From NCBI GenBank assembly GCA_015068245.1, contig SVKU01000001.1, positions 186,001 through 250,000 on the forward strand: DNA of 64,000 nt. The letters run 5' to 3'. Numbering within the stretch: the stretch's first letter is position 1; the number at the start of each line of letters is the position of its first letter. Shown here piece after piece: positions 1 through 5,240 of this stretch. This stretch comes from Oscillospiraceae bacterium (GTDB lineage Bacteria; Bacillota; Clostridia; Oscillospirales; Oscillospiraceae). A program made the translations under genes and the position numbers. The notes beneath the pieces were generated by a model. It saw only the letters and a program-made list of their open reading frames with translations. It ran no database searches and had not been told where the DNA came from.

Positions 1-225
1 ACACTTTCCACAGCCTGCACAAAGGTCAGTGTTTATTGAAGCCTTTTTCGAACCCATATAGACAGTTTTATGTCCCACTGAGTCAAATGATGAAACCAAA
101 TGGAGATTGGGCGCATCAACATCGCAATCCGCAAAAGCTTTGGCACCTGAAAAGCCAATGAAAGCAGCGGCAGTGGTAGTCTTGCCTGTACCGCCTTTAC
201 CGCTGAGTATAAGCAGTCTTTTCAT
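1..225 (-). CDS. MinD/ParA-like P-loop ATPase with ferredoxin domain (partial, runs off left edge)
   Basis: Only the first 75 codons lie in the window. They open with a deviant Walker A motif, SGKGGTGKTT, at residues 8-17, followed by an ADCDVDAPNLH stretch typical of the MinD/Mrp group, and reach the start of a ferredoxin motif (CAGCGKC) at the edge. The ATG overlaps the TGA of the upstream ATPase gene as ATGA, so the two are translationally coupled. Paired MinD-like ATPases carrying 4Fe-4S inserts next to NifX-like proteins are known from anaerobes and are usually linked to metal-cofactor or Fe-S handling; the exact substrate is unknown. The missing C-terminal part lies outside the window. 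Confidence 0.85.
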   Translation of the reverse strand, partial: MKRLLILSGKGGTGKTTTAAAFIGFSGAKAFADCDVDAPNLHLVSSFDSVGHKTVYMGSKKASINTDLCAGCGKC

Positions 226-1055
226 ATTTCGGCCTCCTCTTCAATGCGTTTAAGGAGGTCAGTGAACATACTAAAAACTCCGTTATCTTCCCGCACAGCA
301 ACTTTACCTGCGGAACACAGGGAAGCTGTTTGTTCACTGAATGGTATTCGCATCAGAATGTTAATGTTATTATCTTTACAAAACTGCTCAAGAGGTGCGT
401 AAGCTGAAGTTTCTTTATTAATGACAACACCACATCTTTTGCCAAGCAGAGTTACCAATTCATAAACCATTTTAAAATTGTGCAGTCCAAATGCAGTTGG
501 TTCCGCAACAATAACACAATAGTCTGAATCCATGACGCTCTCCATTACTGAACACCCACTGCCGGGCGGGCAATCAATTACAATAAGAGTGTCATTCTGG
601 TGCTGCAATGCCTGTGAAATCACTTTAACACCTGATGCCTCACCTGTATCAAGTATTCCGGTTACAACAGTTACATTCCCTGATACCCCTGTTTCAACAA
701 CACCAATGTGTTTTTTGTCCTCATATATTGCGTTTTCCGGGCAGAGCACTAAACAGCCTCCACAGCTGTGACAAAGCTGCGGGAAGAATCTTGGCTTGTC
801 CTTTATAAACAGGACTGAATTGAACTGACATACTTCTGCACATTTTCGACAGCCAATACACTTTTCAATGTTGAATCCGGGAATCATTGTGAAAACATCT
901 TCTGCAACTACATTCTGAGGCTTTAAAAAAAGATGACCATTTGGTTCCTCAACATCACAGTCGATATATGCAGCTTTAGACGATGCGGCAGCCAGATTGA
1001 CTGATACAAAGGTTTTGCCTGTACCGCCTTTTCCACTGAGAACAGCAAGCTTCAT
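222..1055 (-). CDS. MinD-like ATPase with inserted 2x[4Fe-4S] ferredoxin domain
   Basis: A 277-residue protein with a Walker A motif GKGGTGKT at residues 8-15 and a MinD-type IDCDVEEPN stretch near 31-39. A bacterial two-cluster ferredoxin domain is inserted after it, with cysteines at 66, 69, 72, 76 and 95, 98, 101, 105, enough for two 4Fe-4S clusters. A switch II type IDCPPGSG follows. The family (P-loop ATPases of the Mrp/NBP35/MinD superclass with ferredoxin) is thought to act in Fe-S or metal-cofactor assembly or transfer. It overlaps the NifX-like gene upstream (ATGA) and the second, similar ATPase downstream (ATGA), so all are read from one transcript. The two ATPases may act as a heterodimer, which is inference. 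Confidence 0.9.
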   Translation of the reverse strand: MKLAVLSGKGGTGKTFVSVNLAAASSKAAYIDCDVEEPNGHLFLKPQNVVAEDVFTMIPGFNIEKCIGCRKCAEVCQFNSVLFIKDKPRFFPQLCHSCGGCLVLCPENAIYEDKKHIGVVETGVSGNVTVVTGILDTGEASGVKVISQALQHQNDTLIVIDCPPGSGCSVMESVMDSDYCVIVAEPTAFGLHNFKMVYELVTLLGKRCGVVINKETSAYAPLEQFCKDNNINILMRIPFSEQTASLCSAGKVAVREDNGVFSMFTDLLKRIEEEAEI

Positions 1056-1408
1056 AAAATCCCTATATAACCTCCGTGAAATGATGTAAGCTCTTCCAGC
1101 TTACCGGCTTTAAACGCAGAAATATTATCATCTGCAAATTCATATGCAGACTTGAAAATCTGAATTTCCGCTGCTTTCATAACTTCCGCAGCGTTTTCAC
1201 CGCATCGCTTTGTGATCAGAACATCAGCTTCAGCGTCAACAACACACTGGGCAGCTTTCATACCTGCTCCCCCCTGTGCCTCTGCACCGGGATTGGGTAA
1301 AAAGCTTTGTTCTCCGGTTTCAGTATTACACACCAGAAACAATGGTGTTCTGCCAAAAGCAACACAAACACTCTTTTTATCGTCATCAACGGGAATTGCG
1401 ATTATCAC
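1052..1408 (-). CDS. NifX/NifB-C-terminal-like dinitrogenase Fe-Mo cofactor biosynthesis family protein
   Basis: A 118-residue single-domain protein of the NifX/NifY/VnfX/NifB C-terminal family. It starts MIIAIPVDDDKK, has the central glycine-rich GGAGMKAAQ segment and ends in the helix-turn region around KAGKLEEL. In nitrogen fixers this fold binds FeMo-cofactor precursors. In non-diazotrophic anaerobes the stand-alone copies usually lie beside MinD-like ATPases, as here, and their cargo is unknown. No nif structural genes are in the window, so nitrogen fixation should not be inferred. The gene overlaps both neighbours by 4 bp (ATGA). Confidence 0.88.
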   Translation of the reverse strand: MIIAIPVDDDKKSVCVAFGRTPLFLVCNTETGEQSFLPNPGAEAQGGAGMKAAQCVVDAEADVLITKRCGENAAEVMKAAEIQIFKSAYEFADDNISAFKAGKLEELTSFHGGYIGIL

Positions 1409-1776
1409 TGCATACCCTCCTTAATTTCACAGGCTCTTCGATGTTTTCTGCAGCCGCCGCAGGCACAGTATGTCTCTTCACCACTGCAAAGCTGATATTC
1501 TCCGCCTTCAATTCGCAATGTCAGCCCCATAACCAAAGCACGGGCAACTTTTCTTCTGGCATTGTTATAAATCTGCTGCGCAGTGGTTCTGGCGACTTTC
1601 ATATATTCACTGCACTGTTCCTGTGTAAAGCCTTCGTTATCAATGAGCCGTATAGATTCATATTCATCGACGGTCATAATAATGATTTCGTCAGACACCT
1701 CATCAGTATTAACAGGTGCAAACTGGTTGACTCTTGGCAGGCAGCATACTTTTCTGCATTTTCTGGGGCGCGGCAT
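1405..1776 (-). CDS. DUF134 family (UPF0251) DNA-binding regulator
   Basis: A 123-residue protein beginning MPRPRKCRKV, the hallmark of the DUF134/UPF0251 family. A sigma-70 region-4-like helix-turn-helix occupies roughly residues 40-95 (ESIRLIDNEGFTQEQC, then ARTTAQQIYNNARRKVA). The rest is cysteine-rich: two cysteines within the first dozen residues and a CACGGC cluster near the C terminus, so it may bind a metal or Fe-S cluster. It is the first gene of a four-gene overlapping operon with the NifX-like protein and two MinD-like ATPases. The three repeated sites around the promoter just upstream suggest that it regulates its own operon (inference). The start has GGAGG about 6 nt upstream. 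Confidence 0.88.
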   Translation of the reverse strand: MPRPRKCRKVCCLPRVNQFAPVNTDEVSDEIIIMTVDEYESIRLIDNEGFTQEQCSEYMKVARTTAQQIYNNARRKVARALVMGLTLRIEGGEYQLCSGEETYCACGGCRKHRRACEIKEGMQ

Positions 1777-1797: not shown

Positions 1798-1865
1798 TGG
1801 CATATGTCACTTTAATTATACAAAATAATTGGCATATGTCAATAATAAAAATGACATATGCCAAT
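1798..1865 (-). promoter_or_regulatory. Promoter with three operator-like repeats for the DUF134 operon
   Basis: Read on the minus strand there is a consensus promoter: TTGACA (1837-1842), a 16-bp spacer and TATAAT (1815-1820). The 11-bp motif GGCATATGTCA occurs three times: at 1799-1809, at 1831-1841 overlapping the -35 box, and inverted at 1852-1862 upstream of it. The last two are extended as ATTGGCATATGTCA-type arms. Sites upstream of, over and downstream of the core promoter are what one expects for a repressor, most simply the DUF134 protein encoded next. Confidence 0.8.
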
Positions 1866-1868
1866 TAT

Positions 1869-3194
1869 TCAAATTACTACACTGATATTTTCGATACCGT
1901 AAATATCAAAAAGCTTTAAAGCTTCTTCTGTTACAACTTCTCCGGATACAACGATCGGTATAGCAGGAGGACAAGATACAGTAGGTGATGCACAAATCCT
2001 GCCAATTGAGTCTTTTGCATTGAGTATTTCCTGTTTTGAAAATACAGCATCACGAACGGACATTACTCTTTCACCATGTGGTATTGCCAAAGCGCCGTCA
2101 TCATTATACGGAAGCTTATTTTCACCCAAAGCGAACATCAGCTTATCAAAATCATTCATACTGTTTTCAACAGACACCATAAGGACTAAATAGTCGTTAT
2201 CAGCATACTCGCATTCAATGCAGTTTGCTCTTAAGGAATCTGCCAGATCTGAGCCTTTCATTCCAAAAGGAGCTTTAATGGTGAGTTTCAATGGATCGGA
2301 GTCAATAGTCTCCCAGCCGGCTCTATTAAGCTTTAGTCTTAAATCATCAAGCACATTCACAGTACTCCTAAGAGAATTGCGAAACTCACCTGCAAGATAG
2401 TCATTGCACATATCCAGTGATGCCAATATAAGATACGAAGGGCTGGTGGAGCCAAACAAACTCATAGCAGCCTTTGCATCGAGATTCATCAGGTTTTGTG
2501 ATTCCTTATGAATATGCAAATACGCTCCACCGGTTAGAACCGGAAGTGTCTTATGCGCAGAATCACAACAGATATCAGCACCAAGATCCATCGGATGTGA
2601 AGGTTCAGGCAAAAAATGCAGATACGCACCATGAGCATTATCAACGGCAAGAATCGTTCCGTACCGATGGCAAACATCAGCCATGGTTCTGATGTCCAGC
2701 ATTCCACCTAAATAGTCAGGACTTGTAAGATAAACAGCTGCAGGTGGTTCAGGCAGCGCAGCCAGTGTATTTTCAAGCGTTTCCGCAGAAATATGGCAGC
2801 TGCACAACGAATCAGACTTACTACCCGGCAACAGCCATACAATATTCAAATCAAGCAAAGCAGCAGCGTAAATAAAAGATTTATGTACGTTTCTGCCGGC
2901 CACAATAGTTGCGTTTCTGCCGGCCATCAATGCCAGATACAACATAGCACGAATACACTGACTGGAGCCTTCGGTAGAGTATAGAGTTTTTCCGGAACCA
3001 AAGAGTTTTGAAGCATTGACTTCACTTTCGTCTATGATGCCATTTGCTTCATACAAAGCGTCTGCACCTTTTATCTCGGTTATGTCAAAAGGTTCCGGCC
3101 CCAGAAAGGCATTTCCTTTATGACCCGGCATATGAAATCTTGTCATTTGTGCAGACCGATACTCAAATAAAAAATCAGCAATCGGTGTTCTCAT
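1869..3194 (-). CDS. Orn/Lys/Arg decarboxylase family PLP enzyme (short form)
   Basis: A 441-residue fold-type-I PLP enzyme of the ornithine/lysine/arginine decarboxylase group. The DNAHGAYLHF motif (PLP-binding Asp and His) and SAHKTLPVLTGGAYL, with the Schiff-base lysine, are both present. It lacks the N-terminal wing domain of long enterobacterial decarboxylases and matches the short Firmicutes form (B. subtilis SpeA/YaaO type). The likely reaction is decarboxylation of arginine or lysine to a polyamine precursor; the substrate cannot be told from motifs. Its ATG overlaps the TGA of the SCIFF maturase (ATGA), so it is translationally coupled to that gene. Confidence 0.88.
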   Translation of the reverse strand: MRTPIADFLFEYRSAQMTRFHMPGHKGNAFLGPEPFDITEIKGADALYEANGIIDESEVNASKLFGSGKTLYSTEGSSQCIRAMLYLALMAGRNATIVAGRNVHKSFIYAAALLDLNIVWLLPGSKSDSLCSCHISAETLENTLAALPEPPAAVYLTSPDYLGGMLDIRTMADVCHRYGTILAVDNAHGAYLHFLPEPSHPMDLGADICCDSAHKTLPVLTGGAYLHIHKESQNLMNLDAKAAMSLFGSTSPSYLILASLDMCNDYLAGEFRNSLRSTVNVLDDLRLKLNRAGWETIDSDPLKLTIKAPFGMKGSDLADSLRANCIECEYADNDYLVLMVSVENSMNDFDKLMFALGENKLPYNDDGALAIPHGERVMSVRDAVFSKQEILNAKDSIGRICASPTVSCPPAIPIVVSGEVVTEEALKLFDIYGIENISVVI

Positions 3195-4579
3195 TTTTCG
3201 TCAGCCATAGCAGACTGAGCAACTTTTATCATTATAGCACATTCGATGCGCTTGCGGAACAGTTCGCAACCTGCTTCATATACACCCTTAATGGATCCGG
3301 TAGCGTGGTATGCATTAGCAGCGCATCCACCGGAGCAGTACAATTTTGCCCAACAGTCTTTACATTCTTCCCTGGCGTAAGCGTTGCAGCTTCTGAATTC
3401 GTCACGAAGCTCATCATTGGTAACGCCATTCCAAACATCACCAAGCTTATAGCTTTCCTCACCGACAAACTGATGACAGGGATACAAATCTCCCCATGGA
3501 GTGACTGCCATGTACTCTGTTCCGCTTCCGCAGCCGGAGATGCGTTTGTAAATACAGGGGCCATTTGTCAGGTCAAGCATGTAGTGGTAGAAAGTAAATC
3601 CTTTGCCTTCTTTTTCACGTTTAAGCATTTCCTTTGCCAGAATTTCGTAGTGTTCCTTGACGATTTCAAGATCCTCTGCAGTAAGAGCAGAAGGATCATC
3701 GGGAGAACATACAACAGGTTCCATACTCAGTTCGGTAAACCCAAGGTCTGCCATATGGAAAACGTCTTTAGTGAAGTCGGGGTTTGCATGGGTAAAGGTG
3801 CCGCGCATATAATACTCTTTGCCCTCTCTGGCCTTAACGAGTTTCTGAAACTTGGGCACAATTCGGTCATAGCTTCCGTTACCTGCATAGTCAACACGGG
3901 TACGGTCATTGATTTCTTTGCGACCGTCAAGACTGAGGACTACGTTTGTCATTTCCTTATTTGCAAATTCGATAACATCGTCATCAATCAGCATGCCGTT
4001 CGTGGTGAGTGTGAATCTGAAATTCTTTCCTCTTTCCTTTTCCACACTGCGTGCATAGGCAACAAGCTGCTTGACAACTTCCCAGTTCATAAGCGGTTCG
4101 CCGCCAAAAAAGTCAACCTCAAGATTGGTTCGGGTTCCTGAATTGTCCATCAGAAAATCCAGTGCCTGTTTGCCAACTTCAAAGCTCATCAACGCCCTGT
4201 CACCATGGTATCTGCCCTGACTTGCAAAGCAATAAGAGCAGTTCAGGTTGCAGGTATGGGCAACATGGAGGCACAAAGCCTTGATTACATTGCCGGAACG
4301 TTCTTTGAATGTGCCGGCAAGATCAGCAAAAGAATCGGGAGTAAACAGCTTTCCCTGCTGTTCAAGATATGCAACATCTGCTATACAAAGGTTGATTTCT
4401 TCTTCTGTTACATCTTCCCTATCACTGTATTTATCCAAAATCTTCTCAACAATTTCCTCATGGTGATTATCCTTATACATCTCAATAATGTCATAAGCCA
4501 CCTCATCAACCACGTGAACCGAACCGGAGCAAGTGTCGAGCACAATATTGAAACCGTTGAGTTTATACTGATGAACCAT
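3191..4579 (-). CDS. scfB: Thioether cross-link-forming SCIFF peptide maturase (radical SAM/SPASM)
   Basis: A 462-residue radical SAM enzyme. The cluster-binding CxxxCxxC motif (CNLNCSYC) is at residues 110-117 and is followed by a glycine-rich FFGGEP motif. The C-terminal SPASM domain carries auxiliary-cluster cysteines (GCGSGTEYMAV, YPCHQF, CKDCWAKLYCSGGC, AGCELF). An N-terminal RRE-like segment precedes the core. This is the SCIFF maturase family, which links Cys sulfur to a neighbouring residue of the SCIFF peptide, encoded just upstream. I start at MVHQYKLNG because AGGAGG lies 8 nt upstream; the ATG 24 nt earlier has no such site. Confidence 0.94.
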   Translation of the reverse strand: MVHQYKLNGFNIVLDTCSGSVHVVDEVAYDIIEMYKDNHHEEIVEKILDKYSDREDVTEEEINLCIADVAYLEQQGKLFTPDSFADLAGTFKERSGNVIKALCLHVAHTCNLNCSYCFASQGRYHGDRALMSFEVGKQALDFLMDNSGTRTNLEVDFFGGEPLMNWEVVKQLVAYARSVEKERGKNFRFTLTTNGMLIDDDVIEFANKEMTNVVLSLDGRKEINDRTRVDYAGNGSYDRIVPKFQKLVKAREGKEYYMRGTFTHANPDFTKDVFHMADLGFTELSMEPVVCSPDDPSALTAEDLEIVKEHYEILAKEMLKREKEGKGFTFYHYMLDLTNGPCIYKRISGCGSGTEYMAVTPWGDLYPCHQFVGEESYKLGDVWNGVTNDELRDEFRSCNAYAREECKDCWAKLYCSGGCAANAYHATGSIKGVYEAGCELFRKRIECAIMIKVAQSAMADEK

Positions 4580-4605
4580 CGGATTATCCTCCTGTTTACA
4601 CAAAG

Positions 4606-4634
4606 AAAAGGTGCAACTGACGGCTGCACCTTTT
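4606..4634 (-). terminator. Attenuator-like hairpin between SCIFF peptide and maturase
   Basis: A perfect 10-bp stem (AAAAGGTGCA at 4606-4615 and its complement at 4625-4634, 9-nt loop) followed on the minus strand by a U-rich stretch. It lies between the SCIFF stop codon and the maturase ribosome-binding site. It would act as a partial terminator, giving more short peptide transcript than enzyme transcript, an arrangement common in peptide-maturase operons. Confidence 0.7.
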
Positions 4635-4650
4635 CCAGTAATAGATTATC

Positions 4651-4800
4651 TTACTTGTTGGTGTTTTCGCACTGCTGGTTAGCAACACCGCAGCTGGTCT
4701 TGCAAGCGGACTGGCAAGAAGTCTGGCATTCACCGCAGCCACCGTTCTTAGCGCTTTCACACATATTTCTGGTTTCGAGGGTTTTAATTCTTTCCATCAT
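4651..4800 (-). CDS. scfA: SCIFF ranthipeptide precursor (six-cysteine peptide)
   Basis: A 49-residue peptide ending CGECQTSCQSACKTSC and then GVANQQCEN, the near-invariant SCIFF signature. The N-terminal ERIKTLETRN is the conserved leader. The family is the substrate of the maturase encoded 72 bp downstream and is found almost throughout Clostridia; its biological role is unsettled. Two adjacent ATGs are possible (4800 and 4797); GGAG lies 5 and 8 nt upstream respectively. An extra cysteine about 13 residues from the N terminus gives seven cysteines in total instead of six. Confidence 0.93.
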   Translation of the reverse strand: MMERIKTLETRNMCESAKNGGCGECQTSCQSACKTSCGVANQQCENTNK

Positions 4801-4867
4801 TATAACTCCATTCGATTTGATTCTTGTTAGCGACCGGGACCAATCCACAGTCGGTTTTTCTTCCTAT

Positions 4868-4896
4868 AAGTTATCATATCACAAGCTTTAAGTCAA
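4868..4896 (-). promoter_or_regulatory. Possible promoter of SCIFF operon
   Basis: On the minus strand TTGACT (4891-4896) and TAACTT (4868-4873) are separated by 17 bp, about 70 nt upstream of the SCIFF start. The -10 box is a weak match, so the position is tentative. Confidence 0.4.
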
Positions 4897-4933
4897 GATA
4901 TGGAACTGTCATTTATTCAATATCAAAATCAGA

Positions 4934-4962
4934 TTATATTCTTCCCGCTTTTTGCATATAGT
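4934..4962 (+). promoter_or_regulatory. Sigma-E-like sporulation promoter of spoIIID
   Basis: TTATATT (4934-4940), a 14-bp spacer and CATATAGT (4955-4962) fit the B. subtilis sigma-E pattern (kmATATT, N14-15, CATACAnT) with one clear mismatch in the -10 box. It sits about 30 nt upstream of the proposed spoIIID start, and spoIIID is a known sigma-E target. Confidence 0.6.
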
Positions 4963-4991
4963 CTAACGAAGAAGCTTTGGGAGTGGTGTTA

Positions 4992-5240
4992 TTGAACGCA
5001 AGCATAGAGCAGCGAGCAATGGATCTTGCAGCGTACATAATTGAGAACAGAACAACAGTCCGAGCTGCAGCAGCCCATTTCGGTATCAGCAAATCTACGG
5101 TGCACAAGGATATTTCTGACAGGCTTAAATACATCAATAAGCCAATGTATATACAAGTTAAGGAAATACTGGAAATAAACAAAGCCGAGCGCCATCTTAG
5201 AGGTGGTATTGCAACAAGAAAGAAATACAAGGGTGAATAG
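4992..5240 (+). CDS. spoIIID: Sporulation transcriptional regulator SpoIIID
   Basis: The protein contains TVRAAAAHFGISKSTVHKDI, the characteristic helix-turn-helix of SpoIIID, followed by VKEILEINKAERHLRGG, which is nearly identical in the family. From the TTG at 4992 it is 82 residues, close to the usual 85-95. This start has GGGAG 8 nt upstream; an in-frame TTG at 4977 would place that site inside the gene. SpoIIID acts in the mother cell after engulfment, downstream of sigma-E, and switches the programme toward sigma-K. Its presence is good evidence that the organism can sporulate. It stands alone and is followed by a strong terminator. Confidence 0.93.
   Translation: MNASIEQRAMDLAAYIIENRTTVRAAAAHFGISKSTVHKDISDRLKYINKPMYIQVKEILEINKAERHLRGGIATRKKYKGE

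Follow-up and report, generated by a model that had tools for sequence, protein, structure and literature searches.

Three copies of a 12-bp near-palindrome, TGRCATATGYCA, are woven into the promoter of an operon that begins with a DUF134 gene. From comparative sequence analysis we consider it likely, at roughly four chances in five, that these palindromes form an operator bound by DUF134, which would act as a local autoregulator and probably as a repressor. Comparative evidence supports the assignment of this candidate operator well for the DUF134 subfamily represented here (class A, defined below); for other members of the family it is suggestive. The three exact copies lie at 1798-1809, 1830-1841 and 1852-1863 of the window, that is, of the whole 64-kb stretch of DNA analysed. 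The original prediction had described three repeats within 64 bp on the DUF134 promoter, and GGCATATGTCA is indeed present without mismatch at 1799-1809 (+), 1831-1841 (+) and 1852-1862 (-), with no further mismatch-free copy in the window. The true unit is 12 bp long and, because it is a near-palindrome, the strand of each GGCATATGTCA match carries little meaning.

The layout of the promoter can be read directly. As had been proposed, it reads TTGACA-16-TATAAT, which is close to the sigma70 consensus. It lies on the minus strand, with the -35 box TTGACA at 1842..1837 and the -10 box TATAAT at 1820..1815, upstream of the DUF134 start codon at 1776. The putative operator site O1 (1852..1863, reading TGACATATGCCA on the plus strand) is upstream of the -35 box, O2 (1830..1841) overlaps this box and contains all of it except the first base, and O3 (1798..1809) begins 5 bp past the -10 box and probably covers the transcription start. 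Centre-to-centre distances are 32 bp between O3 and O2 and 22 bp between O2 and O1, or about three and two helical turns. With the -35 box inside a site and the -10 box at 16-17 bp from it, the geometry resembles that of a repressor. We infer that DUF134 would bind O1-O3, probably as a dimer, placing one sigma region 4-like helix-turn-helix (HTH) on each TGRCAT half-site. The bound protein would block the -35 box at O2 and the transcription start at O3, and O1, two turns upstream, may add cooperative binding. The predicted outcome is autorepression of the complete DUF134-NifX-MinD-MinD-NifX operon, with release when an Fe-S or Mo/Cu-type cofactor enters or leaves the cysteine set of the protein or, in other species, the fused NifX domain; the state of this cofactor would be the signal. 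DUF134 might instead bind these sites as an activator or mixed regulator, given that 19 of the 73 promoters scored carry a second site upstream, 22-23 bp from the -35 site, and that its sigma region 4-like fold may allow contact with RNA polymerase. We think this unlikely, since a site overlaps the -35 box, the downstream site probably covers the start region and the promoter is already near consensus.

Repeats could also arise by chance or from the base composition of an AT-rich promoter. When two mismatches are allowed, the 12-bp motif occurs 13 times against 9.2 expected, which is no significant enrichment across the whole window, and GGCATATGTCA occurs 26 times against 16.7 by chance, a slight excess. 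The significance therefore rests on the exact cluster. Only five exact TGRCATATGYCA-type sites exist in the 2.43-Mb genome (reversed pattern: 1), three of them in this cluster, and the other two fall within coding sequence, one in an oxidoreductase gene and one in an mraY-like gene. Moreover, tandem pairs of CATATG at such spacing (CATATGY-N13-34-RCATATG) are found in this genome at the DUF134 promoter only. The sole tandem pair of each of two other genomes, G077 (4.3 Mb) and G073 (3.1 Mb), is likewise just upstream of DUF134, and in G077 both of its sites are the genome's only exact sites. Other genomes contain a few additional pairs, some with palindromic or coding-like spacers, and reversed-pattern controls gave 0 to 4. 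Set against this exact cluster, its genome-wide rarity and its conservation across genomes, an origin by chance is scarcely credible, and it is refuted by the recurrence of the sites in independent genomes.

The first gene of the operon (1405..1776, minus strand) encodes a 123-aa protein with 74.1 bits to DUF134 (PF02001) against a cut-off of 27, and is the single DUF134 gene in the whole genome. It is followed on the same strand by a 118-aa NifX-type protein (Nitro_FeMo-Co, PF02579; 1052..1408; 63.9 bits) and a 277-aa MinD/Mrp-type P-loop ATPase with two 4Fe-4S ferredoxin motifs (222..1055; Pfam ParA, CbiA and Fer4). A further MinD-ferredoxin ATPase (287 aa) has only its start in the window (1..225, minus strand); the whole gene is at L175:7362-8225, and after it, beyond the window, comes the gene of another NifX-type protein (119 aa, L175:6988-7347). 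Directly upstream of the operon and on the same strand (1869-5240) are genes for an Orn/Lys/Arg decarboxylase, a SCIFF maturase and a SCIFF peptide, with SpoIIID on the opposite strand beyond the SCIFF genes.

For comparison, DUF134 genes were gathered by protein and not by DNA from 149 relatives, 398 genomes of the phylum, 148 genomes of another phylum and 80 close relatives from named genomes. DUF134 was above the family cut-off in 55/149 relatives, 261/398 genomes of the phylum and 45/148 genomes of the other phylum. Class A comprises the proteins whose helix is of the type [IV]ARTTVQ.IY, the window protein among them; the others, in which [IV]SR[PQ]TF.RI predominates, were called class B. 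A quick midpoint-drawn tree, many of whose forks are unresolved, splits class A from the rest (111 rows against 84). The class A alignment was used for a profile search of genome contigs, the mixed class A/B alignment being too divergent.

Sites of this kind precede the class A DUF134 genes of many other anaerobes. Allowing up to one mismatch, TGRCATATGYCA is found within 120 bp upstream of 76 of 109 non-redundant class A genes. The reversed pattern is found at none of the 109, and shuffling predicts 0.26 genes on average; the same test gave 0/27 in class B. Within 150 bp upstream the count is 76/111. The original prediction had turned on whether such repeats recur upstream of other DUF134 genes, and this is borne out, as 90 of 111 class A genes carry a site within 1 kb against one of 111 for the reversed pattern. 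The 1-kb count exceeds the 120-bp count because several operons have other genes ahead of DUF134, with the paired sites further upstream. At the remaining ORF starts of the same loci a site is present in 21 of 806 cases, and many of the sites away from DUF134 upstream regions are at the heads of operons near DUF134. The promoter arrangement is also shared: 84 class A sites contain TTGAC, with the -35 box inside the site, and in 65 of these a TATAAT-like box (up to one mismatch) follows at a spacer of 16 or 17 (28 and 37 sites, respectively), any other spacer accounting for at most 6. In the relatives, downstream sites begin 0-12 bp past the -10 box.

Tandem pairs of the class A type occur in 18 of the 55 relatives with DUF134 over the cut-off vs 8 of the 94 without it (Fisher p 0.0003). 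By coordinates, the pair is at the DUF134 locus in 12 of the 18 (G000, G007, G009, G014, G015, G032, G054, G062, G068, G073, G077 and G145), the DUF134 of G054 being class B. Among the eight relatives that have a pair and lack DUF134, the spacers are mostly GC-rich or palindromic. In Fusibacter, four sites in two pairs (L240:2380-2557) precede a NifX-MinD-MinD operon with no adjacent DUF134, and this operon is likely a member of the regulon in trans. A small glycine-rich ORF without a Pfam match separates the paired sites from DUF134 at L140:3678-3914, and similar spacing elsewhere suggests that a small gene of this type heads several class A operons. Propionispira arboris has two exact sites about 1.5 kb apart (L238:2270 and 3810) in near-identical contexts.

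When the full set of 256 palindromic 8-mers was ranked without bias, counting for each the DUF134 genes that have it within 150 bp, ACATATGT (32 genes) and GCATATGC (19) came first in class A, the next word reaching 4. In the other phylum GCATATGC led with 5, the next reaching 1. In class B of the Bacillota, GCATATGC and ACATATGT also came first, a lead that is weak taken alone, because at 5 genes each these words stand only just ahead of four AT-rich words with 4 each. Extended sites such as TTGACATATGTTCAA and TTATGAGCATATGCTTATAA are clearly palindromic, and the bases outside the CATATG core vary with the DUF134 subfamily, the class B-type form being TGAGCATATGCTCA as against the class A-type TGRCATATGYCA. 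At half-site position 5, G is present in 210 of 220 class A half-sites, whereas in the 32 half-sites from class B and the other phylum A is the commonest base (A 20, G 10, T 2; Fisher p ~1e-16, uncorrected for relatedness); L029 and L055, which have class A-like helices and sites and were part of the class B ranking set, were excluded from this count. The change of flanks is seen even within one intergenic region. The clearest example is L037, where two operons diverge: nearer the class A DUF134-NifX-MinD-MinD operon are class A-type sites (4113/4151), and nearer the class B DUF134 gene are class B-type sites (4282/4316) with TGAGCAT and TGGGCAT halves. The original prediction of an operator set tied to DUF134 genes is thus strengthened at the level of sequence, the sites being conserved upstream of these genes and their flanks following the subfamily.

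Paired upstream sites with 35-bp spacing precede the class B DUF134 genes of L207 and L021. In the sequence available within 1 kb upstream, RCATATGY is lacking at 43 of the 61 DUF134 genes of class B and at 17 of the 23 from the other phylum and, given also the weak class B 8-mer lead, the operator claim is firm for class A only. A search for a separate class B palindrome yielded weak candidates only (TTATG-N10-CATAA), which failed with more sequences. The Mailhella, Sumerlaeota and Mucispirillum loci (L157, L118 and L150) are on MAG contigs that may be binning errors, and were excluded as proof of spread beyond the Bacillota.

The pattern TTGAC-N4-GTCAA is the operator pattern of some Crp/Fnr regulators, and the class A site TTGACATATGTCAA fits it. 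The sites could accordingly be bound by a Crp/Fnr-family regulator encoded elsewhere, with DUF134 merely a member of its regulon. A cNMP-binding protein is encoded in all 41 genomes tested, and in three genomes an exact site, TGACATATGTCA (flanked, ATGACATATGTCAT), lies between a Crp-like gene and a YdcZ (PF04657)-type exporter gene (L235:2074, Clostridium carboxidivorans; L239:2504, Fusibacter sp. 3D3; L242:2015, Clostridium minihomine). However, an exact or one-mismatch site is absent at 30 other YdcZ loci, and the present genome has no YdcZ gene. Moreover, sites of the other phylum such as TTATGAGCATATGCTTATAA do not fit TTGAC-N4-GTCAA, the tandem pairs of G000, G077 and G073 are exclusively at DUF134, and flanks vary with the DUF134 subfamily, also inside one genome. 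We consider a Crp/Fnr regulator to be quite improbable and retain DUF134 as the probable reader of the sites. The likeness to Crp/Fnr operators lies in the similar palindromic half-site TTGAC; unlike them, the sites appear to track DUF134 subfamily and gene position and not Crp genes.

The gene adjacent to the operator belongs to the DUF134/UPF0251 family (PF02001) by the Pfam cut-off, and an HTH protein fits the role. The AlphaFold2 model of the protein (mean pLDDT 77.9; at least 89 by blocks over residues 31-90; below 50 in the C-terminal tail) shows a helical HTH whose similarity to sigma region 4 is of middling score. Residues ~14-86 of the model match region 4 domains with a Foldseek probability of 1.00 and E ~0.1, and the best VIA Z is 6.8, where a Z below 8 may mean merely a common arrangement. 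A sequence search for solved structures returned none for any DUF134 relative, the best hits (E 0.024 and 0.05) being other DNA-binding proteins.

Cys11 (107/111), Cys97 (106/111) and Cys109 (103/111) are near-invariant in class A, and Cys104 is present in 90. Cys11 and Cys97 are almost absent outside class A, and Cys55, Cys104 and Cys109 align with cysteines of most class B proteins also. DUF134-NifX fusions were detected by profile scoring in 39 of 109 class A proteins, and four were confirmed with Pfam. Four class A proteins have few C-terminal cysteines, all of them long. In L015, L019, L020, L038 and L186, C-terminal cysteines are few and a NifX-like domain follows almost directly (Pfam-checked in L020 and L186). 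It is plausible that the cysteine set or the NifX domain senses a cofactor, because the cysteines are conserved, two of them typical of class A, and because DUF134 is fused to NifX.

In the 5.39 million open papers searched we found no operator for DUF134/UPF0251, and papers containing GACATATGTC-like strings were, judged by title, unrelated. The site set gives DUF134, a family with no operator or function in the papers searched, a candidate DNA target, and the proteins of its putative regulon, NifX and MinD-ferredoxin, suggest a role in the handling of metal cofactors or Fe-S by anaerobes. More tentatively, and with some doubt on our part, the widespread DUF134 family as a whole might read an RCATATGY core with subfamily flanks through its sigma region 4-like HTH. 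At many promoters sigma region 4 and DUF134 would then take turns in reading TTGACAT, with the supply of Fe-S or Mo/Cu cofactor controlling their direct competition for the -35 box.

Lastly, the nearest functional parallel to the present system is the ORP (orange protein) operons of Desulfovibrio vulgaris (orp1/orp2, DVU2103-2109), where the proteins are alike and the regulation is of a different type. In these operons a Nitro_FeMo-Co protein is encoded next to MinD-type ATPases that carry two 4Fe-4S motifs (PMC6345978, PMC3897727), as in the operon described here, and MrpORP binds and transfers Fe-S clusters (PMC6345978). The equivalog model of the MrpORP fusion (NF041136) gave at best 45.6 bits among the proteins of the window against a cut-off of 450. 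The cognate ORP regulator represses its own promoter via palindromic sites (PMC3897727), as is predicted here for DUF134. However, that regulator is the sigma54-dependent enhancer-binding protein DVU2106, acting with IHF (PMC6345978, PMC3897727), whereas the present promoter is of the sigma70 type and the candidate regulator is a small DUF134 HTH protein, no DVU2106-type gene being adjacent to the operon at this locus. The DUF134 model also resembles the HTH domains of sigma-70 region 4, which read the -35 box, and the putative operator overlaps TTGACA. Unlike the sigma-70 factors, DUF134 has none of the other sigma regions.
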